Shown here: positions 1-14,189 of the stretch, in pieces
Numbering within the stretch: the first letter of the stretch is position 1
How the letters are laid out: every line of letters begins with the position of its first letter
NCBI GenBank assembly: GCA_001797815.1
Contig: MGQK01000034.1
Span: 1-14,189 of the forward strand
Direction of reading: 5' to 3'
DNA length: 14,189 nucleotides
Origin: Deltaproteobacteria bacterium RBG_13_61_14
GTDB lineage: Bacteria > RBG-13-61-14
Position numbers and translations under genes: made by a program
The notes under the pieces: generated by a model
Seen by the model: only the letters and a program-made list of their open reading frames with translations
Databases searched by the model: none
Told to the model about the DNA's origin: nothing

Positions 1-3000
1 CATTGTTATAGTCCGCGCTGCGGCCGTTGAGGATAAGGTTGATCCGGTTCAGGTCCGGGACGCCAATGAGCAGGTTGCCGTCGCCGTCGCCGAAGTAGCC
101 GCCCCCGGGCCAGCCCTGCCTGGGCTTGGTGTCGTCGCAGGGGTCGGAGACGTTGCCGTCCCCGTTGTTGTTGAAATACTCGTGGATGTTGGCCAGTCCG
201 TCGGTGTCGCCATCGGCCAAGGCGTCGTCCACCAGCGCGCTCAAACAGGCTTTGCCCACCTCATAGGCATCCGGCATCAGGTCGCTGTCGGTATCGGGAC
301 TCAGGGGATCGGTGAAATACAGGTCAACCTCGTCGCCGTCGGTGAGGGTGTCGTTATCCGTATCCGCGTCGCAGGGGTGGGTGCCTTCGGCGTATTCCTG
401 CTCGTTGTTCAGTCCGTCCGAGTCGTAGTCCGTCAGGTTGTCCACGGTATCGGCCATCATGCAGGCGTAGGTGTTTTCCCACGCATCCGGCAAGCCGTCC
501 CCGTCCGCGTCCGGCGGGCCGCAGCCTTCGTCCACCTGGCCGTAGCCTGGATCACCCGGACACTGGTTGTCCTGGCCATCGCAAATTTCCGGCGCGCCCG
601 GATAAACCGCGTTGTCGTCATCATCGCAGTCCGGGCCGGCCAGACAGTTGGTGCCGTAGCTATCGCCGTCCGTGTCGGTGCAATTCGATACGCAAGGATC
701 AGTGACGCCGGAATATTCCGCGAGGTTGCTCAACCCGTCACTGTCCGGGTCGCCGAGAGAATCGCCCGCCAGGGGATTCACACAGGCGAGGTAGGTCACC
801 TCCCAGCCGTCGTCCATCCCGTCGTTGTCCGTGTCCGGGTCCAGCGGGTCGGTGCCGTAGAGGCTCCGCTCCTGGTCGTTAGTGAGCCCGTCGCCGTCCG
901 GGTCGCCGGTGAGGGTCAGCATGGACACGTCCTGCTGCGTGATCCCGCCATTGCTGATAACCAGGCCGCTGAAACTTTCGTCCAGGTATCCCCCCACCCC
1001 CACCACCTCCAGTGTGTGGTTCGCTCCGGTCGCCAGCCGCATCGAGTAGAACCCGTCTACCTGGCTTCGGGTTTGCGATCCGGTAATATACAAGGTCACG
1101 CCAAGCCCATTGCCGCTCACGGCATCCCGCACATAGCCCTCCAAGATCCCGGTCGAACTCTTCGGCACCAGGTACATGTCAACTCTGGTCGTGGCCTTGA
1201 TGGTGCAGACCTCAGGTAGTTTGTCCTGGTAGTTCGTCATGGATGCTTTGCAGGTGTAGGTCCCGAGCTTGACGTTGCTTATCATGTAATAGCCGCCCTC
1301 GCTGGTGGTGGCGGTCACCGAGTTGCCCGCGGAATACCGCACCTTAAAGGTCGCGCCGAAAATCCCGTAGTCTGTCGCCTGATCCCGGATGTAGCCGGAG
1401 ACAATGCCGCCGGCCGTCTCCAGGTCCACCCGCAGGGTGTAATCGGTGCCGGCCCCGAAGACCGTGCCCAGCGAATGCCGGACCATCACGTAGTAGGTGG
1501 CGGTCTGGTCGCAGTTGAAGTAGATGCGCGAGTCCCGGCCGAGGTAGTCGTCGTTGGAGTCAATCAGGGTGAGGGTGCTTCCGTCCAGCCGGTAAAGTTC
1601 CATGTAGGTGTCGGAGTTGGGTCCCAGGTTGGAGGTGAAGATGTTGTAGGGCTCGCCGGCGGTGCCGTCGAACTTGACCCAGTCCTGGTCCCCGGCAACA
1701 TGGAAGTTGTGCAACTGCCCGGTGGGCGCGCTGACCACGATGTCGTTGGCCGTGTCCTTGGAATCGTCCGGCTCGTAGGCGTCCATCCCCACCACCGAGA
1801 GGTAGGTGGTGCCCGGCTTGCTGATGTTGTCATTGATGTCCTTGGCGTAAATGTTGACCATGTAGTCGCCGTTGATGGTGAAGATGAAATCCACCTGGTC
1901 CTCGGTGAACACGTAGTTCCAGCGGCCGTCCTGATCCGGGTCGGTGAGGTGGACGATCGGGATCAGGTCGTCCTCCACCTTGGGCGTCTGGAAATCCCCA
2001 CCCGACTCCGGCGGCGCATAGCCCGGGTAGGTAATGATGGCATAGACCCCGGCCACGTTATTGAAGTTGACCACGTCCGCCCAGATCTCGACCGTGTGCC
2101 CGAACACCACCTGCGCCGGCGGGCTCGCGGTCACGTCCGGGGTTTCCACCCCGGAGAAGAACCGCGACCCAATGTAACGGGTCATCGCATAGGCCCCGTC
2201 TTTGCCCACGCCGTCATCAACATAAGTTCCGTCGCCGTTGTCATCCAACTGCGGGATCTGCCCGGACCAGCCTTTGATCGCGGAGCTGGCCAGGTTGAAG
2301 GCCGCGTGGATGGTCTGGCCGGCCATGACGTTGTTGAAGAAGAACTGGCTGAAGGACACCGTCCCGTTCACCGTGTAATAGGCCGAGTCGGTGTCCCGGG
2401 CGCTGCTGATCACGATCCTTTTCAAGCTGGCCGAGCCCAGGTTGTCAAGGAACGTCCCGGAATAGCAGGCGTCGTAGATTACGGTCACGGCGCAGTTGGT
2501 CTGGGATTGGAGTTGGTCCAGCCAGCCGTCCAGACTGTCCGCGTCCAGCGACACCGGGTTGCCTTCTGCATCCTGGGTGATCAGGAACACGTTGTTCCCG
2601 CCGTGGTCCAGCAGGATCACGGTCAGCGGGATGTCCGGCGTCCCGCTCACCGGGGTGTTGGGCGCGTCAAAGAACTGGCCCTCCACCCAGGCGTCCTGGC
2701 CCTGCGCCCACTGGGTGATGGCGTATTGCAGCTTGGCCAGGCTGGGGGTGCTATCAATGTCGTTATACATGCCGTCGCCGTTGCCGTCAAAGGGCTGGGA
2801 GGCATTGGGGTTCATGTAGAAGATCTTGTCCGGCGTAAACCCGCGCTGGATCAGGGTCTTGTATGCGAAGTTGGCCAGGTAATTGATGTTGGTGACCAGG
2901 CGGTTGGAGTCGAGAAGCCCGCCACCGGCCACGATGATGGCCCGGCCCACGTCCGAGGTGATGGTGATCTTGGCGTTGACCGCGTCGCTGACCGAGTCCA

Positions 3001-6000
3001 TCACGCTGATGTTGAACTCGCCGGGAATGGAGCCGGCCCAGTAATCGAAGGTGGGTCCGGTGCCGATCTCGATCACTCCGCCCAGGGCATACCAAGTGTA
3101 GCAGTCTTCCGGCGGTAAAACACCACAATTACCGCCCACCGCCCGGAACTGCTGGAAGTCGCCCGGCGCCATGCCCACTGCGGAGGGCCGGATCTGGAAC
3201 TTGGCCTTCTTCATGTGCACCGGAGAAGCATAGCTCACGCCCCGGGAGTCGGTGGCCGTGACCAGGTAATCGCCCGGCTCGGCGCCCGGGGTGTAGGTCA
3301 AGGTGTTCCCGTCCGCCGCCGCGGCGCCGCCGGTGAAAGTCCAGGTGCAAGTTCCCGGCACGAAGCCAGGAGCCAGGCAGCCGGTGGCGTTGAAGATAAT
3401 GTCCGGGGTCTCGGTCTCGGTGTTGACGAAGCTCGGAGTGATCACCACCAGGCCCGCTTTCTCGATGGTGAAGTTCACGTTGGCATTGAGCGGCGGATTC
3501 CCGGCATAGTCCTGGGCCCAGACCCGGAGGTTGTGGTCGCCCACCGCGGTGTTGGCCGGCAGATACTTCTTGAGCCGGCCCACCCCGTTGAGCGTGAGCA
3601 CGATCTCGATGGTGTCGCCGGTCTGGGTGGCGGTGTAATCGGTCACCGGGACCAGGGTGGCGCCGTCGAGGAAGACCACCGGCGAGGTGCCGGTGTTGAC
3701 GCCGCTGCCGGCGTCGTAGATCGTGGCGCGGATGTCGGGCATCAGGTTGAACACGATGTCCTGGTGCTCGGGCACGCTGGAAGTAATCTGCACCGACAGG
3801 GTATCCACGATGATGCCGTCGCTGAACTTGGCCGCCGAGGGCACGCCGCCCAGGTTGAGCGCCCGCACCGAGACGTAAACCATCGCGCTTTCGGTGAGTT
3901 CGAGACCGCCGGCAATGAGGCTGCAGGTGCCGGCGGCGCAGGTGTAGCCCGAGCCGGTCCAGCCGCGGAAGTCCAGGCCGCCCGGGGCCAGGCCCACCGC
4001 ATATTGATAAGTCACGCCCGAATCCGGATCGCTCACTTCGTTCCAGGTGGCGGTGATGGTATCGCCGGTGGTGAGGTAAGTGCCGGAGTCGGTGACCACC
4101 AGCGGGGCCACGTCGGGCGGGCTTACGTCCACCAAGGTGGAGTCGTCCGGCCCGGCCGGCGCCGGCTCGGCCGCGCCATACTGGCTGACCGCGATGGTGT
4201 AGAAGTCGTAGGCGCCGGTGCCGCTTGGGGCGGTGAAGTCGAAGTGGCCAGTGCTGCCGGAAAGCGGCCCCAGCAGGGAATTAGTCCAGGTTCCGCCGTT
4301 GTAGCGATACCAGAGATAGACGCTAGCCGTGGCCGAGTTACAGGTGAAGCTCACCGGGAAGGGAGCGCCGCCCGCGTAGTCGGGCGAAGCGCAGGAGCTG
4401 GAGGGCGGCACCACGTTGAACGAGGTGGTGGAATCCGGGGGCGAGGCCGGGGCCGTCTCGTAACGGAGGGGCGAGAACTCGGCCCGGGTGTAGAAGCGGT
4501 AAACGCCGTTGCCGAAGACGGGGACGTAATCAATCAAGCCGGGGCCGCGGCGGGTCTGGCTGGACTCGATGTAATTGGACCCGTTCCAGCTGACGAAGAG
4601 GTGGATGAGGGCGGTGGGGTCATCGCAGGTGACCGTGACCGGAATCGGCGCGATTTCCGTGGAGTCCGGGGAGGCACAGGAAGAAGTCGGCACCGGGTTG
4701 GCAATCAAGGGGTTGGAGCCGAGGGAGATCTCGTCGCCGTCGTTGCGGCCGTCGCCGTCGGAGTCGGCGTTACAGGGGTTGGTCAAGTTCAGGAATTCGG
4801 CCACGTTCTTCAAGCCGTCGGCGTCGGGGTCGGCCAGGGAATCGCCGACCAGGATGTTCAGGCAGGCGTAGGTGTTCTCCCAGTCGTCGGGCAGGCCGTC
4901 GTTGTCGGTGTCATTGGAGCAGGGGTTGGAGCCCAGGGAGCTTTCCGCGGAGTTGGTGAGGCTATCGGAGTCCGCATCCCCCGAGCTGTCCGCGGCCAGG
5001 GGATCGAGACAGGCGTAGGTGATCTCGTAGCCGTCGAGCATGCCGTCGCCGTCGCTGTCGGCGACCAGGGGATTGGTGTCCAGGCCCGCGGTATAGACGT
5101 CGTTGCCGTCGCCGATGTAGTAGTTGACCTCGGCATCATCGGAAGCGCCGTCGCCGTCGGTGTCGGCCAGCCAGGGGTTGGTGTCGAGTCCGGGGTTGTA
5201 GTTATAGGGATCGCCGCCGAACGCGAGCTCGAAGGCGTCATTTAAACCGTCGCTGTCGGTGTCGGCCAGGCAGGGGCTGGTCTCGCCGGCGTCCACCACC
5301 CCGTCGTTGTCCTTGTCCTCGCCGTCGGCGCCGCCGTCCTGGAGCCCGTCGCCGTCGGTGTCCGGCAGGTTGGGATTCAAGCAGGCCACGTTCCACTCCA
5401 CCCCGTCGGAGATAAAGTCGTCATCCGAGTCCGCGTCCATGGGATTGGTCAGGGAGACGAAGAGCTCGAAACGGTCGGTGAGCCCGTCGGCGTCGGAGTC
5501 GGCCAGCGTTGGATTGGTGAAATAGAAGTTGACTTCGGAGCCGTCGTTAAGCTGGTCGCCGTCGGTGTCGGCGTTGCGGGGGTTGGTGTTGTTCTGGTAT
5601 TCGGCCAGGTTGGTGAGCCCGTCGGAGTCGGCGTCGCCGCCGGCGTCATTCACCAACGGGTTGAAGCTATATTGGATTTCCCAGCCATCGGGAGTGCCGT
5701 CGCCGTCGGTGTCGGCGTTGCAAGGATTGGTGTTGTTGGCGTATTCCTGGAGGTTGGTGAGGGTGTCGGAGTCATAGTCCGCGGAGGCATCCGCGGTATT
5801 GGCCTGCATGCAGCCGTAGCTGAGCTCCCAGGTGTTAGGCAGCCCGTCGCAGTCGGCGTCGCCGGGGCAGATCAAGGCGATGGTGGCGCTGTCCAAGAGC
5901 GCGGCCACGGTGCATTGCGCCACGTCCTCCGCCGGCGCGCTCAGGCCGGCGGTGTAGAGGCCGGTCCCGGAATCAATCCAGCCGCCGGAGCCGTTGACCG

Positions 6001-9000
6001 GCAAATCATAGGCCGGCGGCGTTCCCTGGGGGTTGGCTTCGCTCGAGGTGCAGCCATCGCTCCAGACGGCCGAGCAGGAGAAGTCTTCGGTTTGGCCGGT
6101 TTCTCTGGTCAGGGGGCCGGCCGGCTGGATATCCACCCAGGTAAGCACGTCGTCGTTGAGCAAGGTGACGGTCTGGCCGGTGCAGGCGGTATGGTTCACC
6201 CCGCAGCTCCCGGCCGGGTCCGCGCCGCAGGGCACATTCTGGCCGGTAATCAAGCCGTCCATGCCAAAGCAGTCGCCGGTGACGTAAGTGCCGACCGCCA
6301 GGTTTTCGGTGCAGCTGTCGCTCCAGGTCTTGTAAACCTGGTAACTCAAAGTCTGGTTCTCGAAGATTTCCGAGGGCAGGTTGCAGACGTCGCCCAGGTC
6401 GGTGTCGTCGTTGAGAAGCGTGATGCCCATGGCCACGCAAGCCGGGTGGTCAACACTGCAGGAGCCGGCTGGGTCAGCGCCGCAGGGCACATCATTGCCG
6501 GTAATGGTCCCGTTGGCGCCGGTGCAGTCCCCGGTCACGCTCGAGCTCAGGCTCTCGGTGCAGCCGTCGCTCCAACTCTTGTAAAGCTGGTATGAGTCGG
6601 TCTCGTTCTCGTCAATGTCCGCGGGCGGGTTGCAGGTATCTCCCAGGTCAGCGTCATCGTTGTAAAGAGTGATGCTTGAGCAGGCCGTGTTGTCCACCCC
6701 GCAGGTGCCGGCCGGGTCCGCGCCGCAGGGGACATTGTTGCCGGTGATGCTTCCATTCGAGCCGGTGCAGTCACCGGTTACGTTGGAGCTTAGCGATTCC
6801 GTGCAACCGTCGCTCCAACTCTTGTAAAGCTGATAGCTATCGGTCCCATTTTCAATGATGCTCGCCGGCATGTTGCAGGTGTCGCCTATGTCGGTGTCGT
6901 CGTTGAGAAGCGTGATGCCCATGGCCACGCAAGCCGGATGGTCCACCCCGCAGCTCCCGGCCGGGTCCGCGCCGCAGAGCACATCCTGGCCGGTAATCAA
7001 GCCGTCCATGCCAAAGCAGTCGCCGGTGACGTAAGTGCCGACCGCCAGGTTTTCGGTGCAGCCGTCACTCCAGGTCTTGTAAACCTGGTAACTCAAAGTC
7101 TGGTTCTCGAAGATTTCCGAGGGCAGGTTGCAGACGTCGCCCAGGTCGGTGTCGTCATTGATCACGGTGACGCTGTTCCTATCACTGACCATCAGCGGGT
7201 TGAGCACCGGCTCCGCCATGACCGTGCCATAGCCGCCCAGGCCGCAGGGGATTTGATTGGCCTGGATTAGACAGCCGGTGATCACGGTCAGATCGCCGGA
7301 TGTTGAACAGATCAGGCCCCCGGCCAGCGAGCAGTCATCATCCGGCGCGTAGTCGTAGGAGCAGGTAGCGGTTATGGTGATCGTGCCTCCCTCGGCGAGG
7401 TCAAGAGGATCGGGCTGGTCAATGACGATGGAAATGCATTGCGCCTCTGCGGTGCAGGGGTCGGTGAGGTTATTGTATTCCTGGAGGTTGGTGAAGCCGT
7501 CGCTGTCGGGGTTGGCGAGCGAGTCGCCGAACAAGGGATCCACGCAGGCGGAGTAGGTCACTTCCCAGTCGTCATCCATGCCGTCATAGTCGGTGTCCCA
7601 ATAGCAGGGGTTGGTGTCGGCCGCATACTCGCCGCTGTTGACGAGGTTATCGCTGTCGTAATCCGCGCCGGCGTCCGGGGTGCTGATTTGCATACAGGGG
7701 TAGCTGCCTTCCCAGCCGTTGTCCATCCCGTCGCCGTCAATGTCGCAGCCGAGCCGGGCGAAATAAATTTCTCGGTTGCCATCCCTTTCGTCGGACCAAT
7801 TGATTCCATACTCGGAACCGGTCCAGGCGAGAACTGGAGCATAGCTACCACCCGCGGCATTGGTGACCCGGACCTCCGAGCCGAGCTTGGTCCCGGCGGA
7901 GGAGACGCGGGCAAAATAGATTTCCGGGTTGCCGTCGCGCTCATCATGCCAGCTCACTCCGAACTCGGACCCGGTCCAGGACAGGGAAGGATACCAGCTA
8001 TTATTAACGGCATTTGTGATCCGGACGTCGGATCCAATCTTGGTGCCGTTGGCCGCGATCCGGGCAAAATAGATTTCATCGTTTCCATCCCGGGTGTCTT
8101 GCCAGCTCATCCCGTATTCGGATCCGGTCCAGGTCAGGGTCATAGCTTGGCTAAAGCCCGAGCCGCTGGAGATCAGGGTATCGCTGCCGATCTTGGCGCC
8201 GGCGGCAGAGATCCGGGCAAAATACGCTTGATAAACCCCGCTGCGGGCGTCTTCCCAACTCACCCCATACTCGGAACCGGTCCAGACCAGATCGGGGATA
8301 TCGCTCCAGCCCCCGGCATTGGAGATGCGTGAGTCCGATCCGATTTTGGCGCCATTGGCCGCGAGGCGGACAAAGTAGATTTCCGTGCTGCCGTCGCGGC
8401 CATCATCCCAGCTCAACCCATACTCGGACCCGGTCCAGGCCAGATACGGCCGCCGGCTATAAGGAAAAGCGCCGCCGGAGGTGATCTGGACATCGCCTCC
8501 GATTTTGGTCCCGTCCGCGGAGAGCCGGGCGAAATAAATTTGGTAGTTGCCGCTGCGTTCATCGTCCCAGGTCAATCCATACTCGGTCCCGGTCCAAACC
8601 AGGGTAGAGTAGTAGCTATTGCCGGCCGCATTCGTGATCCGGACATCGGCCCCGAGCTTGGCCCCAGCTGAGGAAATCCGGGCGAAATAGATTTCCCAGT
8701 TGCCGTCGCGGGAATCATACCAGCTCATTCCATATTCGGACCCGGTCCAGGCCATGGACCATGTGTAGCTTTCACCGGGATCATTCGTGATCCGAAGATC
8801 GCTCCCCAGCTTGGCCGGGTTGGGGCAGGTCTCGGCGTTGCAGGGGTCGGTGGAGGCCAGGTATTCCTGCTCATTGCTCTGGCCGTCAAAGTCGTAGTCC
8901 TCCAGGTTGTCCACCGTGAAGGCCATCATGCAGCCGTAGGTCAATTCCCAGGAGTCAGGCAAGCCGTCGCCGTCGGAGTCCGGGCCGGCTTGGGGAGCGA

Positions 9001-12000
9001 TTAAAATGCCGAAGACATCCCCAAACCCGCCCGTGGAAAAGTTCACCGGCGAGTTGACCAGGTAAAGGGTGCGCCCTCCCCCCAAACCGATCATCCCCAA
9101 TTGATTATCCGGTCCGGTATAAATCGGCGCTTCCCCGCCGACCAATGCTCCCGCGGGACTGAGCCGCTGACCGTAAATGTCCCAGCAGCTGCCTTCGCCC
9201 GCATCGCAGCTCCCATCGCCGTTGGTGTCGTTGCGGGCATCGGTCCAGATCACCTGGTAGGAGGCTCCGTCAAAAATCGCCAGGGGGAACATCTGTTGGC
9301 CCCCCGCGGTGCTGATCGTGATCGGCCCGCCCACCAAGGAGCCGGCCGGAGAAACCAGTTGACCGAACACGTCCCAGTTTCCGGCGCTCACCTCATCGGT
9401 CCAGAGCACCAGGTAATTGGTCCCGTCAAAGGCCACGGAGAGGGGATTGTCGCTGGGCGCGGGACTGGCGTTGATGCTGAGCTCGGTTCCCAAGGTTCCC
9501 GAGGGACTGACAAAGCGGCCGCGCACCTCGGAGTCGTTGCCATCGTCGGTCCAGACCACAAAGAAATTGGTCCCGTCAAAGGCCACATTGCCCACCCTGG
9601 CAAAATCACCCAGGCCGGTGCTGATCGTGATCTCGCTCCCCACCGAGCCGGCCGGAGATACCAGTCGGCCATAGGCGCGGCTGTCCGAGCCAACGCCGAT
9701 CTCATTGAAGTAAGCTACCAGGTATTGACCGCCGCCGAAAGCTACTCCAGCCAGCCCGTGGTTCGCAGTCAGCGGCGCGATCTCAAAAGAGGCCCCCACC
9801 CAGGAACCCCCCGGGCTGATGAAACGGCCCCAGACGTGGTTGGGTGAAAAGGTGTCCTGCTCCCAGACCACCAAGTAATTGGTGCCGTCAAAGGCCACCA
9901 GAGGCACGCTCCCGGTGCCGCCGGTAGGGATCCGGGAGCCGACCTTGGTGCCGTTAGGCGTAATGAACTGCACAGCGCCATCGCCGAGCGAGATCGTATC
10001 GCCCTCCATCCCGACCAGGAAATTCACGCCATCAAAAGCCGCTGACACCGCCATCTCTTCACCGATGGTGGTGGCAATGGGGAAGAGGCAGGGATCGGTG
10101 GCGCCGGTGTATTCCTGCCAATTGGAAAAGGCGTCGCCGTCGGGGTTATTCGCGGTGTCACTAACCAGGGGATTGACGCAGTGATCGTATTGCCGCTCCC
10201 ACCAGTCATCCATGCCGTCGTCGTCGGTGTCCCAGTAGCAGGGGTCGGTGGAGAGGAATCCGCCGTTGTATTCTTCCAGGTTGGCGAGCCCGTCGCCGTC
10301 GTAATCCGCGCCGGCGTCCATGGTGTCGGCCATCATGCAGCCATACAGAAACTCCCAGGCATCGGGCATGCCGTCGCCGTCGCTGTCGGTGCCGCCGTCA
10401 AACACGCAGGGATCGGTGAGGTTAAAATATTCCTGGAGGTTGGTGAAGGCGTCGCCGTCGGGGTTGAGGTCGCTGTCGGCAACATTCGGACCCACACAGC
10501 CATAACTCACTTCCCAAGCATCATCCATGCCATCGCCGTCGGAATCCGCGTTAAAAGGATTGAAGTGGAAGCCGTCCTCGCACACGAAGGGATAGGAATA
10601 TGAGCAATCATCGTCAGCCCACTCCAGGCCATAATAAATATATAAATTCATGCAATTCTGGTTGCCCATGTAATTGTCAGGCTGTCCATTGGTCGTGCTC
10701 CAATTAGTATAGGTGACCGGAGTGCCGTGATCCCAGACGAAGACACCCTCGATATCTAGGTCATTAAGCCCCATCCAGGTGGTGTCCGTGACCTGGGACC
10801 GGAGATAACCGTCCTCGGCGGCGTCCTCGATTGCAGCCAGATCGCCGCCGTAGCTCCGACAGAAATCGCGGGCGCTGAACCAGTCCGTGGAATTGGAACA
10901 GAACAGGTAATGATGGCCGTTGTAAGTCTGGGCCGAGCAACCCGGAACCGAGGCGCAGCCGTCGCCGGCCCAGCAGGTGAAAGGCGTGGGCGGATAGGCC
11001 AACTCAAAGGCATCGGTCAACCCGTCGCCGTCGGTGTCGGCCAGGCAGGGATTAGTCCCGTTGGTGTATTCCTGGAGGTTAGTGAGAGTATCGGAGTCAT
11101 AGTCCGCGTCCGCGTCCGCAGTGTTGGCCATCATGCAGCCGTAGCTGAGTTCCCAGGAGTCAGGCATCCCGTCGCCGTCGCTGTCATCGGTTACGCCGTT
11201 AAAGACGCAGGGATCGGTAGCGCCCAGGTATTCGTTGTAATTGGAGATGCCATCCCCGTCCGGATCCGCGGTGGAATCTCCGACCAGCGGGTTCACGCAG
11301 GGATAGCCGGCTTCCCAGCCGTCGGGCATGCCGTCGCCGTCGGTGTCCCAGAGGCAGGGGTCGGTCCCTTCTTCGTATTCGCTTTGGTTGATCAGGTTAT
11401 CCGGCTCCCAGTCTTGCCAGTTGTCCGGGGTGGAAGCGCCGAGGCAACCGTAGAGGATTTCCCAGGCATCGGGCATGCCGTCGCCGTCGCTGTCCGGGCC
11501 GGTGATGAAGGCGGCGTTCTGGGAAGAGGAGTAGTCCAGCCAGGGTTCGAGCCAGACGGTGCCGGTCCAATGCTCGGCGCCGAGGGAGAGGTCGAGGTTG
11601 AGGTTCGGCTCGCCGAACACGTCGCCGGCGAAATAGCCGCCATAGACCCGCAGGGTGCTGCCGTCGAGCAGGGCGGCGTGGCCGGTGCGGGGACGGGGGA
11701 AGGAAGTTCCGGTGAAGAGTTGGGACCAGGTCCAGGTCGAGAGGTCCAGGGCGTGAACCGCGGCGAAAGTCAGGCCGCAGAAAGGCCCTTCGCAGTCGCC
11801 CCCGGCGTTGCCGCCGTAAATAATGAAACGGTTGTTCGCGTCCACCGCGGCCGCGGGGAAGAAGCGGCCGGCCGGAATGTCGCCGCTCGTTGCCGGTCGG
11901 CTCCAGGTCAGGGTGGAGAGATTGAGGAGGTAAACGTCGTTGGCGGGCAGGCCGTCGTAGCCGGCGAACAGGACCAGGCGGTTGTTAGCCGCGTCCAGGG

Positions 12001-14189
12001 CTAAGGCCATGCCGACGCGGGGCGTGGGCAGACTGCCCGAGGGTGAAAGGGCGGACCAGGCTTCACTGCCCGGGGTGGAGAGGTCGAGCTGCCAGAGGTC
12101 GTTCTTGAAGCCGCTCAGGTCATAGCCGCCAAAGAGGATCAGGCGGGACCCGATTGGGTCGTAAACCCCGGCGCTATAGCCGCGGGGCGAAGGAGGCGTG
12201 CCGGCAGGACTGAGCTGGCTCCAGGTTTCCGAGCCAAGGGTCAAGGAGAGCGTCCAGCAGGAGTTGGTCGGCTGGCTCTCCTGGCCGTTCAAGAATCCCA
12301 GGCACAGGACCATCCGCTGGTTCGCGGAGTCGTAAACCGCCACGGCGTTGGCCACCGGCGTGGGCGGGGCGCCGGAGGGGAAGAGCTGAATCCAGGCGCC
12401 GGTGTCAAGGTCTTGGGCATAGACATTGGAGGTGGCGGTATTGCCTTCGATCCCGCCGTAAACGATCATGCGGTGGTTAAGCGCGTCGAGGACCGCGACA
12501 TGACCGTAGCGGGCTGGCGGCTGGAAACCGGAGGGCTCGCCGGAAGCCGAGTAAGTCACCACTTCCGCGAAGGCGTCGGTGGCGGCCACGGTGACCGAGC
12601 CGCCTTGCAGGAGCACCGGCTGGGGATTGGCGATGCCGGCCGAGCCGGTGACTCGGGTATAGATTTGCAGGTTGCCGGCGTTGGTTACAAGCTGGCCCAG
12701 GTTGTTGAGTAGCTCGTAGCGGACAAACATGGTATTGCCCACCAGCACGTTGGTTGGATCCAGCACCAGGATGGAATCCAGCCGGGGCAGGCCGAAATTG
12801 ATTCCAGAGGTGGTCGCGCCGGCCAGGACCGTAACCGTGTTGGCCTCCGCGAGAGTGGTAACATCGTCAAAGAACTCCACCTGGAAATTAGTTTCCCAGG
12901 GTATCACCACCACGTGATATCCGGCCGGGTGCAGACTCTGGATGGCGTAATCGCCGTTCAGGTCCGTGACGCCGGACCCGACCAGGCTGCCGTCGGTCGA
13001 GTAAGCAACAACCGCAGCATTGGACACAACCGCGGTGCTGCCGTCCTCCGCCCATACCGAGCCGGCGATCGCGCCCAGGAGAGGCAGGCTGAAGTCAATC
13101 CCGGAGGTGGTGTTCCCGGCCGTCACCGCGACCGGGGTGGCGTCTTTCTGATGGATCGCGTTATTGTAAATCTCGAAGATGCTCTCGGTCAGGGGCCCGC
13201 TACTTCCAGTGATGAGCGCGTAATAGCTGCCGGTGGGCAGGCCCACAATTGCGTATTGGCCCAGGGCATTGGTCTCGCCCTCAAAGTTATCGCCGCCTTG
13301 ACCCACCGGCTGAGCCGATACCCAGACATTGGCCAAGGGCGTGCCGGCGCCCTCCTGGATCACCGTGCCGGTAATGACCCCGCCCAGGTCCAGAGTGAAA
13401 TTGATGCCCGAGACCGAGCTTCCGGCCGCTACGGAAACCGTGTCCGCGTCCGCGAAGTTGAGGACGCTGTCCCAATACTCGGAAAGGTAAATCTGATTCG
13501 CCGGGCCTCCCTCCTGGGTATCGGCATGAACCTTCCAAGCTCCGGGCGGCAGGCCGAGCAACTGGTAGCTGCCGTCGGGCTCGCTCTCGGTATCGGTGTA
13601 ATCGTCCCACTGGGAGGAAGAACCCGCGGGGATAGCCCGCATCCGCACATTGGCCAGGGGGTTGGTTCCGGTCCAGTCGTAAACGTAGCCGGAGATGATC
13701 CCGCCCGGGTCCAGGGTGAAGTTGATTCCCGAGGTCACGGTGGAGGCGCTGACCACCACCGGGTCCGCGTCTCCCTCGTAGTAGGCGCTGTCGTAATACT
13801 CCTGGATCAGGCCCGTGCCCCAGGGCCGCGCCTGAACGTGGAAGCTCCCCATCGGCACCCCGTCAATCCGATAAAAGCCGCTGCCGTCGCTATTCCTGGA
13901 GATAAAGCCATTCCACTCATCAAAGCCTTCCCAATACCGGACTTCCACCTCCACGTTGGGGATGGGGGTGATCCCGTCGGCCTGGTAAACATAGCCGGAG
14001 ATGGCGCCGCCCGGGTCCAGGGTGAAGTCAATGCCGGTCACCGCGTCAGGCGGGGTCACATGCACCGTGGTCCGATCATCTTCGTCCAGAACCCCGTTAT
14101 ACCATTCCGTGGCATAGCCAAAAGGCGGAAAGACTCTGATGTAGTAATCGCGCTCGGCCAGGCCGCATGTGACCCCGCCTGACGCGGTG
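1..14189 (-). CDS. Giant modular secreted protein with C13 peptidase, C-type lectin, propeller and TSP3 modules (partial, open at both ends)
   Basis: A single minus-strand frame runs through the window: complete codons occupy 14188 down to 2, giving 4,729 residues without a stop. The coding assignment rests on content: dozens of DxDxDG calcium loops, kelch repeats, a full C-type lectin signature, two sets of seven propeller repeats, a His/Cys peptidase dyad and a PPC domain all lie in this one frame. No start or stop is visible, so signal peptide and anchor are unknown. Many cysteine pairs, calcium loops and the near absence of hydrophobic membrane-like stretches fit an extracytoplasmic protein. 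The dockerin-like motif at the low-coordinate edge suggests that the C-terminus is close, while the N-terminus may be far away because the window opens inside a repeat module. The overall role is inferred as an adhesin or scaffold with one peptidase domain. I recognise no named gene. Confidence 0.95.
2..103 (-). other. Dockerin-like calcium motif at the C-terminal edge (partial)
   Basis: Residues 4696-4729. FGDGDGN followed by PDLNRINLILNG is one half of a type I dockerin-like pair (an Asp-rich loop, then a DLxxIxxxLxG helix). A second half would be expected just past the low-coordinate edge. In bacteria without cellulosomes such pairs often sit at the extreme C-terminus of large secreted proteins. 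Confidence 0.7.
131..520 (-). repeat. TSP3 calcium-binding repeat block F
   Basis: Residues 4557-4686. Loops DADGDGLPD, DYDSDGLNN, DTDNDTLTD, DTDSDLMPD and DGDTDGLAN, with cysteine pairs YAC / THPC and KAC / SDPC. Several loops have lost the Gly at position six. A proline/glycine-rich linker (KPRQGWPGGG) follows. Confidence 0.88.
521..679 (-). other. MopE-type Cys/Asp-rich metal-binding motif
   Basis: Residues 4504-4556. The order DTDGDSYG, C-x5-DCDDDN, VYPGAPEICDGQDNQC and VDEGC is the repeat of the putative metal-binding motif named after the secreted copper protein MopE of Methylococcus (Pfam Cu-binding_MopE). Only one copy is present. The Asp-rich parts more likely hold calcium; copper binding is not shown by the sequence. 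Confidence 0.85.
680..907 (-). repeat. TSP3 calcium-binding repeat block E
   Basis: Residues 4428-4503. Loops DPDGDGLTN, DTDNDGMDD and DPDSDGLSN, with a YAC / TDPC cysteine pair, lead straight into the MopE-type motif. Confidence 0.88.
908..1417 (-). repeat. Two C-terminal CarboxypepD_reg-like modules
   Basis: Module 1 is at 1417-1160 (86 residues) and module 2 at 1159-908 (84). They start GGIVSGYIRD and TGILEGYVRDA and contain SEGGYYMISNVKLGTY and QVDGFYSMRLATG, the DGxYxxxxxxxGxY turn of the family. They are shorter than the N-terminal modules and lack the SGINF closing strand, so they belong to a separate branch rather than to a copied part of the first array. Module 1 has two cysteines. 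Confidence 0.78.
1418..1783 (-). other. Bacterial pre-peptidase C-terminal (PPC) domain
   Basis: Residues 4136-4257. It has the full PPC signature: DAYEPDDS at the start, then QLHNFHVAGDQDWVKF, a GEPYNI strand, SDTYMELYRLDG, LIDSNDDYLGRDSRI and ATYYVMVR, ending YTLRVD. PPC domains are beta-sandwich accessory domains of secreted peptidases, often removed or used for targeting and binding. Its position two domains after the C13 domain fits that habit. Confidence 0.92.
1784..2146 (-). other. Ig-like companion domain after the peptidase
   Basis: Residues 4015-4135. It begins with PDVTASPPAQVVFGHTVEIW and ends GDYMVNIYAKDINDNISKPG. Strands and the (Y)MVxIYAxDxxxNxSxP ending are those of the beta-sandwich that usually follows C13 domains in bacterial multidomain proteins. 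A DPDQDG turn near 1940 could hold calcium. Confidence 0.65.
2465..2467 (-). other. Predicted catalytic Cys of the C13 domain
   Basis: The GCA on the plus strand is TGC (Cys) in VIYDACYSG. A hydrophobic strand followed by DAC-x-SG is the second half of the clan CD dyad. It lies 46 residues after the His. Confidence 0.87.
2603..2605 (-). other. Predicted catalytic His of the C13 domain
   Basis: The GTG on the plus strand is CAC (His) in the sequence LLDHGGNN. A hydrophobic strand followed by (D/S)HG is the first half of the clan CD dyad. Confidence 0.85.
2948..3208 (-). other. Ig-like domain immediately before the peptidase
   Basis: Residues 3661-3747. It starts KAKFQIRPS, contains APGDFQQFRAVGGNC and CYTWYA, and ends GEFNISVMDSVS-KITI just before the first peptidase strand. 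An Ig-like or Big_2-like sandwich commonly precedes C13-type domains in large bacterial proteins. The fold is inferred from the strand pattern. Confidence 0.55.
3209..3454 (-). other. PKD-like Ig domain
   Basis: Residues 3579-3660. FNATGC, CTWTFTGG, LTYTPGAEPGDYLVTATDSRG: the xxWxFxGG turn followed by a GxYxVTxTDxxG strand is the usual PKD-type arrangement. Two cysteines flank a PGFVPGT loop. It has a spacer role next to the peptidase. Confidence 0.6.
3455..3799 (-). other. Ig-like (Big/cadherin-like) domain
   Basis: Residues 3464-3578. Recognised from DIRATIYDAGSGV, VFLDGATLVP, GDTIEIVLTLNG, and the final GDHNLRVWAQDYAGNPP strand; the (V/L)xAxDxAGN ending is typical of bacterial Ig-like and cadherin-like domains. 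No cysteines. Confidence 0.68.
3800..4120 (-). other. Fibronectin type III-like domain
   Basis: Residues 3357-3463. The segment PLVVTDSGTYLTTGDTITATW followed by DPDSGVTYQYAVG and a late ESAMVYVSVRALN strand matches the FN3 order (a Trp-containing B strand, a Tyr in strand C, a YxxxVRAxN strand F). One CxxxxC pair (YTCAAGTC) sits between strands. It has a structural or spacer role. Confidence 0.65.
4121..4702 (-). repeat. Two tandem Ig/FN3-like domains starting with SSCASPD
   Basis: Repeat 1 is at 4702-4409 (98 residues) and repeat 2 at 4408-4121 (96). Both start (T/S)SSCASPD, then P(I/F)PV-(T/S)-(V/F)-TC, a LWYRYNGG or LFVSWNGS strand, a glycine-rich turn and a (G)xYxFYTxA strand, and end with PDDST or PPDST. 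This resembles the Ig-like domain common in bacterial proteins, with a wykynGgxWt strand and an xYyFYtxaxDxaGN segment. The two cysteines of each are placed to form one disulfide. Confidence 0.72.
4703..5866 (-). repeat. Long TSP3 calcium-binding repeat block D (about 16 loops)
   Basis: Residues 2775-3162, the largest TSP3 block. I count sixteen DxDxDG-type loops, in both the long paired form (loop, YxC, loop, QEY, NPC) and a short form with one loop and a xxNP turn (for example NFYFTNP, FVSLTNP). Loops include DTDGDGTPD, DSDADGLTD, DTDGDGLQD, DKDNDGVVD and DSDGDGRND. One long unit at 5683-5576 has lost both cysteines. It separates the adhesive front part of the protein from the Ig/peptidase part and would form a long rod. 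Confidence 0.92.
5867..6154 (-). other. Big_2-like Ig domain
   Basis: Residues 2679-2774. After a last NDD strand comes VDIQPAGPLTRETGQTEDF, then SAVWSDGCTSSE and a GxYTAG segment. This is the order seen in Big_2 domains (xxxxPxxxxxxxGxTxxFxxxxxxSDGxxxD). Four cysteines are present, including those in the DFSC, GC and QC contexts. It is the clearest evidence that the four preceding cysteine-rich repeats are also of this general fold. Confidence 0.65.
6155..7156 (-). repeat. Four tandem cysteine-rich Big-like repeats (81-85 residues, A-B-B-A order)
   Basis: Repeat 1 is at 7156-6902 (85 residues), repeat 2 at 6901-6659 (81), repeat 3 at 6658-6410 (83) and repeat 4 at 6409-6155 (85). Each has six cysteines, a Y-Q-(V/L)-YK(T/S)WSDxCTE(N/S)L segment, GDC, ITG, CGADPAG(S/T)C and a closing strand ending in NDD. 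The WSDGCTE stretch resembles the (Y/W)SDGST strand of bacterial Ig-like group 2 (Big_2) domains with cysteines added. Repeats 1 and 4 are almost identical in DNA, while 2 and 3 resemble each other more. The cysteine count suggests three disulfides per module. The role is presumably structural or adhesive. Confidence 0.82.
7157..7441 (-). other. Cysteine-containing Ig-like domain preceding the tandem repeats
   Basis: Residues 2250-2344. It has short beta strands (ISIVIDQ, GGTITITATC), a DDDC and an LICS segment, and ends with SVTVINDD, the same strand that closes each of the four repeats that follow. It is probably a divergent founder or capping member of that array. The family is not recognised with confidence. 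Confidence 0.5.
7442..7750 (-). repeat. TSP3 calcium-binding repeat block C
   Basis: Residues 2147-2249. Two long units: DIDGDGMDN / DYDSDNLVN with YPC and TNPC, then DTDYDGMDD / NPDSDGFTN with YSAC and TDPC. It starts directly at the last strand of propeller II and leads into a cysteine-containing Ig-like segment. Confidence 0.88.
7751..8818 (-). repeat. Seven-repeat beta-propeller II (WTGSEYG family, 153-base period)
   Basis: Residues 1791-2146. Seven copies of WTG(S/T)E(Y/F)G followed by xxWxDxRxGxxxxYFxR and then GxKxGxDxxI. The Trp codons start at 8747, 8594, 8435, 8282, 8129, 7976 and 7823, giving spacings of 153, 159, 153, 153, 153 and 153 bases (51 or 53 residues). The segment begins with the final strand of the unit (KLGSDLRITN) and ends with EIYFARLG, so it is permuted in the way needed for velcro closure of a seven-bladed ring. 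Units are far more alike than those of propeller I, which implies more recent internal duplication or homogenisation. No enzyme signature is visible. The Pfam family is not certain. Confidence 0.85.
8819..8983 (-). repeat. TSP3 spacer unit between the two seven-repeat propellers
   Basis: Residues 1736-1790, one complete long unit: DSDGDGLPD loop, YGC, a degenerate DYDFDGQSN loop, QEY and TDPC, followed by NAETCPNP. It works as a single rigid spacer of about 55 residues between two closed propellers. Confidence 0.88.
8984..10078 (-). repeat. Seven-repeat beta-propeller I (VAFDGTNYLVVW family)
   Basis: Residues 1371-1735. Seven repeats of roughly 50 residues share the pattern (A/G)FDGxxYLVxW-(T/D), then a strand ending (V/I)xGxxxSPxG, then xxGxxxxI. 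The anchor Phe codons start at 10034, 9890, 9737, 9578, 9428 and 9272, and the seventh unit has Leu at 9083. The segment begins with the last strand of the repeat (IATTIG) and ends after the VFGILIAP strand, so the first strand can complete the seventh blade: a closed velcro ring. Blade six carries an inserted DTNGDGSCDAGEGSC loop that resembles an EF-hand with two cysteines. No catalytic residues are recognisable; a binding role is likely. Confidence 0.8.
10079..10561 (-). repeat. Bacterial TSP3 calcium-binding repeat block B
   Basis: Residues 1210-1370. Three long units, each with two DxDxDG-like loops (for example DSDGDGMDD followed by NPDGDAFTN), the QEY/EEY segment and the paired cysteines (YGC or YDHC, then TDPC). 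The block links the lectin domain to the first seven-repeat propeller. Two second loops start with Asn rather than Asp, which still offers an oxygen ligand. Confidence 0.9.
10577..10939 (-). other. C-type lectin-like domain (long form)
   Basis: Residues 1084-1204, 121 residues, the usual length for the fold. In order: Cys at 10937 and 10898 (the extra N-terminal pair of long-form domains), WFSARDFC ending at 10859, GGDLAAIED, WMGLND (Trp at 10775), FVWDHG, YTNW, QPDN (10682-10673), Cys at 10652, W-A-D at 10619-10613, Cys at 10604 and PFVCE ending at 10577. The six cysteines match the three canonical disulfides. QPD is the galactose-type version of the sugar-binding tripeptide. The usual WND motif is WAD here, so one calcium ligand is missing and sugar binding may be weakened or replaced by protein binding. 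TSP3 blocks lie on both sides. The fold is certain; the ligand is unknown. Confidence 0.93.
10994..11500 (-). repeat. Bacterial TSP3 calcium-binding repeat block A
   Basis: Residues 897-1065. Three long units alternate a DSDGDGMPDxWE loop with a DxDxDxxxN-QEY loop, followed by the first loop of a further unit. Long units carry a Tyr-x-Cys after the first loop and a (T/D/N)PC after the second. One second loop (WEPDNLIN) has lost most acidic ligands. Each intact loop should hold one calcium through its Asp side chains, making a stiff rod when calcium is present. The block joins the kelch propeller to the C-type lectin domain. Confidence 0.9.
11561..12520 (-). repeat. Kelch-repeat beta-propeller, six units
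   Basis: Residues 557-876. Six units of about 45-60 residues follow the kelch pattern: PxxR near the start, a xxxD strand, then (R)x(h)(h)(h)(Y/F)GG, and a W or Y-x-L-D-L strand ending in TWSQL-like sequence. The diglycine is VYGG at 12452-12463, FGGY at 12122-12133 and VYGGY near 11633-11647; the second unit reads LCLGF and the fourth FAGY, so both are degenerate. The fifth unit has an inserted loop with two cysteines (GGDCEGPFCG). Kelch propellers bind proteins or glycans; extracellular bacterial ones are usually binding modules. The ligand cannot be told. A six-bladed fold is the simplest reading, although linker sequence could add a seventh blade. Confidence 0.85.
12521..12784 (-). other. 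Beta-rich linker domain, family not recognised
   Basis: Residues 469-556. It follows the last SGINF anchor and starts with a PRLDSILVLDP stretch, then alternates short hydrophobic strands with polar turns before the first kelch repeat. It may be an invasin- or Ig-like sandwich, or its last part may supply an outer strand of the following kelch propeller. There are no cysteines or calcium loops in it. The fold is inferred only from the residue pattern. Confidence 0.45.
12785..14189 (-). repeat. N-terminal array of CarboxypepD_reg-like beta-sandwich modules (one partial, four complete)
   Basis: Residues 1-468. Each module opens with a GGxIxGxV strand and closes with an AD-x-V-x-V-x-AG stretch followed by SGI(N/D)F. 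The closing Phe codons begin at 14024, 13718, 13397, 13091 and 12794, so the modules measure 102, 107, 102 and 99 residues; the first is cut by the window edge. Inside each, a DGxYxLxGLPxG-like turn and a following Tyr/Asp-rich stretch (EYYD, EYWD) are visible. This is the pattern of carboxypeptidase regulatory-like (transthyretin-fold) domains, common as stalk modules in bacterial surface proteins. They have no catalytic role. The array probably continues beyond 14189. Confidence 0.82.

Follow-up and report, generated by a model that had tools for sequence, protein, structure and literature searches.

The open frame and its domains

The window, the whole 14,189-nucleotide stretch of DNA analyzed here, comprises bases 1–14189 of C34, a 42,865 bp contig of the source genome (G000; 4.74 Mb in 132 contigs, 95% complete). 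Six-frame reading of the window revealed one minus-strand frame (14188 to 2) with zero stops in 4,729 codons, the other five frames containing 213, 20, 195, 141 and 127 stops, and from the base composition of the strand such a run would arise by chance with a probability of about 10^-57. GC3 of this frame amounts to 0.82 overall, with a range of 0.72–0.89 across all 300-codon blocks, there is no N inside the window, and the encoded product has a calculated mass of 500.5 kDa, a pI of 4.05 and an Asp content of 10.7%. A preliminary description of this DNA had proposed a stop-free minus frame, a product above about 480 kDa and domains in the same frame from end to end; all of this was borne out by the codon reading and the domain scans (Table 1), which support the window as one uninterrupted coding frame for a giant protein of many domains. 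Codon bias of a real gene leaves few stops in one antisense frame and thereby yields shadow ORFs, as which the antisense ORFs of the window (up to 676 aa) had correctly been read.

Table 1. Features of the window, in window nucleotides, following the protein from N- to C-terminus after the first two entries
Feature	Position	Strand	Remarks
Open frame, encoding the middle and C-terminal portion of a single giant secreted protein	2–14188	minus	4,729 codons
25-nt exact inverted copy of 14039–14063	14165–14189		adjoins scaffold gap
CarboxypepD_reg-type repeats	12771–14140	minus	at least 4 more stretches upstream of window
Kelch propeller	11504–12541	minus	PF24681 1.7e-66, PF13415 3.5e-37
TSP3 calcium-binding repeats	10982–11494	minus	PF18884; DxDxDx motifs
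C-type lectin domain	10577–10888	minus	PF00059 1e-18
Presumed seven-bladed propeller, AFDGTNYLVVW-type repeats	8984–10075	minus	seven repeats; no Pfam match
Propeller-like region, seven WTGSEYG repeats	7748–8827	minus	DUF5122 propeller near cut-off
Cys-rich Big_2-like repeats, WSDGC every ~85 residues	5870–7450	minus	no Pfam match
Long TSP3 array	4700–5869	minus	Pfam and calcium-motif reading
Ig/FN3/PKD-like beta-sandwich region	2963–4699	minus	weak Pfam matches only
Legumain-like C13 peptidase	2153–2962	minus	PF01650 6.7e-7, above cut-off
PPC domain	1421–1789	minus	PF04151 4.8e-7, above cut-off
Two CarboxypepD_reg domains	911–1420	minus	PF13620
TSP3 arrays, MopE-type motif at 524–688	122–910	minus	domain scans
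First EF-hand of dockerin-like + Ig tail, cut by contig edge	2–121	minus	A1 9.3e-16, A3 1.2e-12

Read from N to C, CarboxypepD_reg repeats are followed by Kelch, TSP3, the C-type lectin, TSP3, seven AFDGTNY-type units, TSP3, seven WTGSEYG units, TSP3, five Cys-rich WSDGC-type repeats, the long TSP3 array, the Ig/FN3/PKD-like region, the C13 peptidase, an Ig-like part, PPC, two CarboxypepD_reg domains, TSP3 with the MopE motif and the start of a dockerin-like part. Kelch, C-type lectin, C13 peptidase and PPC, all named in the preliminary description, were each recovered by Pfam, and its dockerin-like part was confirmed via the complete tails of paralogues. The two seven-repeat propellers stand as to repeat number, seven in each case, but their fold is presumed, one having a near-cut-off propeller match and the other none; likewise the Big-like nature of the Cys-rich repeats rests on resemblance to Big_2 by eye, while they score with no Pfam family. 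The WTGSEYG-repeat region is also present in C102, C41, C31 and C35, and repeats related to the Cys-rich type recur in the N-terminal piece upstream of the window. The C31 protein (7311–9371, plus strand) carries WTGSEFG repeats, MopE-type repeats and a C-terminal GGSYSG followed by a hydrophobic stretch and KRKK, an end that looks like a surface-sorting signal.

That the architecture was not known by name fits our searches. Among the paralogues, the giant of C48 alone is collinear with part of the last third of the window protein, matching stretch 3371–4385 of the frame with 42% identity over 1,049 columns, a match that begins within the Ig/FN3/PKD-like region. The C13 part is absent from both other phylum genomes examined, a contig search of the genomes with the last 1,333 residues returned only TSP3/PPC relatives in unrelated phyla and no match to the architecture, and the combination of Kelch, C-type lectin, legumain-type peptidase and dockerin–Ig tail was not found outside the source genome in these searches. 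C48 itself (2174–17004, plus strand) encodes 4,155 aa and, beyond an N gap, a further piece, with many GDVDNDGDLD (FG-GAP/VCBS-like) repeats in its middle.

The C13 domain scores 29.5 bits with PF01650 against a cut-off of 22.8, with putative catalytic His at 2603–2605 (LDHGG) and Cys at 2465–2467 (DACYSG). A single-sequence PDB search with this domain gave nothing useful, whereas a profile search succeeded, matching human legumain (2.7e-9) with His and Cys aligned and with LDHGG and DACYSG falling on the legumain motifs TDHG and EACESG. An AlphaFold2 model of the domain (pLDDT 80, pTM 0.85) matched legumain in Foldseek at 6e-11. Outside the phylum, four genomes carry C13 relatives, for the most part likewise in large ORFs, and because these often lack one or both catalytic residues the intact pair seen here is noteworthy. 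The domain is thus predicted, by motif and model, to be a legumain-type peptidase, putatively active, and could serve as an autoprocessing or ligase domain. It shares the fold of legumain, His and Cys included, but lies within a giant surface protein of a bacterium. Two of the outside frames, of 2,197 aa in G266:C230 and 2,449 aa in G242:C89, contain tandem C13-like domains, most without the catalytic His or Cys, and would represent pseudo-legumains in bacterial giants.

Ends of the gene and its dockerin-like tail

The preliminary description had noted neither start nor stop, which holds inside the window; both frame ends are absent because the window is bounded by the edge of C34 at base 1 and by a directly adjoining scaffold gap of 28 N (C34:14190–14217) at the other side, so that the open ends are assembly edges, and the start lies on the same contig. 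Extending the contig both ways reached a signal peptide on the start side and the contig edge on the other. Beyond the gaps (two further ones at C34:14365–14457 and 15778–15819) follow CarboxypepD_reg repeats, Cys-rich repeats and then MNWIRKIWIGVCLMVLFGLPASVGAQ at C34:17051, which, read by eye, appears to be a typical Sec signal peptide. Since 28 does not divide by three, this upstream piece is read in another frame. Its CarboxypepD_reg-type and Cys-rich repeats are both shared with the window, aligning at 35% over 358 columns in one case and at 41% over 176 in the other, so that the N-terminal piece very likely belongs to the gene of the window. Where the 1043-aa and 4,759-aa ORFs overlap, programmed frameshifting was considered and rejected, the frame change falling exactly on the 28-N gap. 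With a real start and a partner piece upstream, the earlier expectation that gene callers would miss the gene is weakened; more likely they would give two pieces, divided at this gap. The inverted copy listed in Table 1 is probably an assembly fold-back, and the first 8 codons (TASGGVTC), which lie inside it, are therefore doubtful.

At the other end, the last 40 residues of the frame constitute the first half of a dockerin-like pair, and DNA near-identical to it lies at the edges of C96, C41 and C48 and adjoins a gap in C102, while C89 stops just short of it. C11 and C24 begin, and C112 ends, with the other end of this tail module. The assembly thus breaks at the tail because a near-identical 3' module is common to many genes, and short-read contig edges will hide the ends of giant genes wherever such a module is common to them. 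In the paralogues C79 and C42 the tail is complete, continuing through the second EF-hand and an Ig-like domain to a stop, from which we infer that some 150 codons past the contig edge precede the stop of the present gene. The whole protein, once the upstream and tail pieces are added across the N gaps and the contig edge, would measure about 5,800 aa, the gap lengths in this figure being the estimates of the scaffolder.

Two profiles were built from the tail, A1 from those of C79 and C42 and A3 from 12 tail sequences. A1 locates the tail at about 16 places in the source genome, with matches in both other phylum genomes. A3 gives strong matches in all 3 phylum genomes, partly since these built the profile, and outside the phylum matches 4 of 287 genomes, each partially (E 8e-6 to 2e-4). 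These comparisons rest on three genomes of the phylum, the source genome included, and on an outside set of 287, and suggest that at least 10 further large secreted proteins from this sparsely sampled phylum carry the tail. Against the PDB the tail profile matches 8x39 (1.8e-8), annotated as a serine protease but having the same repeat motif, and the dockerin DocCel5 (5nrk_B, 1.7e-4). Some tails match Pfam Dockerin_1 (best 1.9e-4) and Big_1 (best 3.3e-4); with PF00404, 3 of the 12 tails match at E ≤ 1, that of C79 gives no match and that of C130 scores 23.0 bits against a cut-off of 22.9. The C79 and C42 tails contain two calcium-loop-like motifs, DADGN and DLDGN, of which the window holds the first loop only. 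In an AF2 model of the tail (pLDDT 70, modest), helices 24–34 and 62–72 are placed as in dockerins and precede an Ig sandwich resembling that of intimin D0 (Z 10.4), whereas VIA-align listed the Ig part alone and speaks neither for nor against a dockerin fold. Both bearers of a complete tail also have an enzyme-related region: the C42 protein (9101–13645, plus strand) has a PorU-related (gingipain-like) peptidase region and TSP3, and the C79 protein (10088–13960, plus strand), with a CehA/McbA-like metallohydrolase region (below cut-off) and TSP3, looks like an enzyme borne by the same docking tail.

A candidate partner for the tail was sought among cohesins. A search of the source genome with Pfam cohesin PF00963 returned none, while two copies just above cut-off were present in G002; a profile made from these found one domain in G001 and one in the source genome, at C130:4266–4622 (25 bits, E 4e-5), which has no PF00963 score of its own. 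The top PDB matches of a five-sequence cohesin-like profile are all cohesins (best 0.001), and a dockerin pair lies about 30 residues after the C130 domain. This diverged cohesin-like domain would be the expected partner of the tail, which we take as a lead and not as proof. The C130 protein (1–9449, minus strand) is a giant of at least 3,149 aa with propeller-like repeats and a dockerin + Ig tail, cut at the contig edge.

Proposed role and its alternatives

We put at about even chances the reading that the window encodes a Sec-exported, calcium-stiffened giant of the surface or matrix, part of a non-cellulosomal docking system, which both binds and trims material of glycoprotein or particulate nature. 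The LPS genes that C34 carries nearby, for Kdo kinase and heptosyltransferase, suggest an outer membrane and thus a diderm bacterium; the other neighbors (SAICAR synthetase, LarA, DnaG and sigma-70) give no functional hint. The protein of about 5,800 residues would be exported by Sec from such a cell, its TSP3 arrays presumably binding calcium and serving as stiff spacers, on which binding surfaces (Kelch, C-type lectin, the two other presumed propellers, Ig-like parts) and, towards the C-terminus, the legumain-type cysteine peptidase would be displayed. The dockerin-like + Ig tail may then dock into cohesin-like receptors on other giants, tying a set of large secreted proteins together, on the cell or in its surroundings, as a matrix of non-cellulosomal type that might serve attachment or else the capture and cutting of glycoprotein and other particulate matter. 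Against it weigh that the window holds the first EF-hand alone, the rest of the tail coming from near-identical contig edges, that the cohesin-like domain of the source genome is weak and has no PF00963 score, that one such receptor was found for some dozen tails, and that the peptidase could serve autoprocessing or ligation instead.

The long frame could have been joined by the assembler from several TSP3 genes, or could cover more than one gene, given the many TSP3-rich paralogues in the genome and the signs of assembler trouble at the edges (the inverted copy and the N gaps), but we hold this very improbable. Window positions 3001–14189 have no near-identical long match elsewhere in the genome; long matches of the window are 66–70% identical, short ones mostly up to 86%, and higher values extend over only tens of bases, so that these sequences are too diverged for reads to be confused and a chimeric join is unlikely. 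In addition, there is no stop, in-frame internal starts preceded by ribosome-site-like sequence occur only at codons 4353 and 4398, and the collinearity with C48 runs against a patchwork. Less improbable, yet still unlikely, is a tail that acts in the manner of a T9SS C-terminal domain, as a signal that sorts the proteins across the outer membrane or anchors them on it. Its C-terminal position in C79 and C42, and by contig-edge position also in C34, C96, C41, C48, C89 and C102, would suit such a signal, as would the PorU-like peptidase region in C42. In C125 and C35, however, and in several G001 and G002 proteins, the tail follows shortly after the N-terminus, and since it occurs at either place a docking module fits better than a sorting signal; nor did scans of the window protein, C79, C42 and C48 reveal a T9SS C-terminal domain family.

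A more serious competitor, though one we still rate as somewhat doubtful, is a giant adhesin that works alone in attachment or cell–cell cohesion, as do the TSP3-rich MtsD and CglD of myxobacteria, and in which the dockerin-like pair and Ig domain merely cap or stabilize the chain with calcium. The TSP3 regions of the window match CglD (6.5e-32) and MtsD (3e-23), but far below the NCBIfam equivalog cut-offs (110 of 400 bits and 81.8 of 800 bits, respectively); no other domain in common was seen, and a literature search on TSP3 cohesion proteins found nothing relevant. Compatible with an adhesin is also that the source genome has no Pfam cohesin and that dockerins are found across various prokaryotes that are not regarded as cellulose degraders, so that their presence alone leaves their meaning unclear (PMC9012536). 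Against it, the tail recurs on otherwise different proteins, at either end, and a cohesin-like domain does exist in the genome. By the docking reading, this little-known phylum might join giants of its cell surface or matrix by its own pair of dockerin–Ig and diverged cohesin, with a legumain-type peptidase or ligase docked, as a non-cellulosomal system distinct from those described so far; this wider proposal we make only tentatively.

Relation to known giant proteins

The kind of protein is already known; new are the architecture, the lineage and the dockerin–Ig tail. Surveys have recorded Dockerin_1, Ig-like and CarboxypepD_reg parts in huge extracellular proteins, and Dockerin_1 is among the commoner domains of huge bacterial proteins, mostly from Planctomycetota (PMC11573180). 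With such extracellular proteins of more than 5,000 aa the present one has in common its length (as estimated across the gaps and the contig edge), secretion (as predicted), modular Ig/CarboxypepD_reg/dockerin make-up and lineage-specific occurrence. Non-cellulosomal dockerin/cohesin sets are known in ANME archaea and elsewhere (PMC9012536), and dockerin-like pairs on extracellular proteins and cohesin-like domains in the lineage are common to these and to the present set. Here, in contrast, the dockerin is fused to a Big_1-like Ig domain and poorly seen by the Pfam dockerin model, and the genome has one weak cohesin-like domain, with no multi-cohesin scaffoldin seen. A docking tail that may extend through the phylum, with a partner that can be named, would allow one binding assay to test a set of giant secreted proteins. 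Elsewhere in the source genome, a 16S rRNA gene match lies in two pieces (478–1366 and 16–422) near the start of contig C21.
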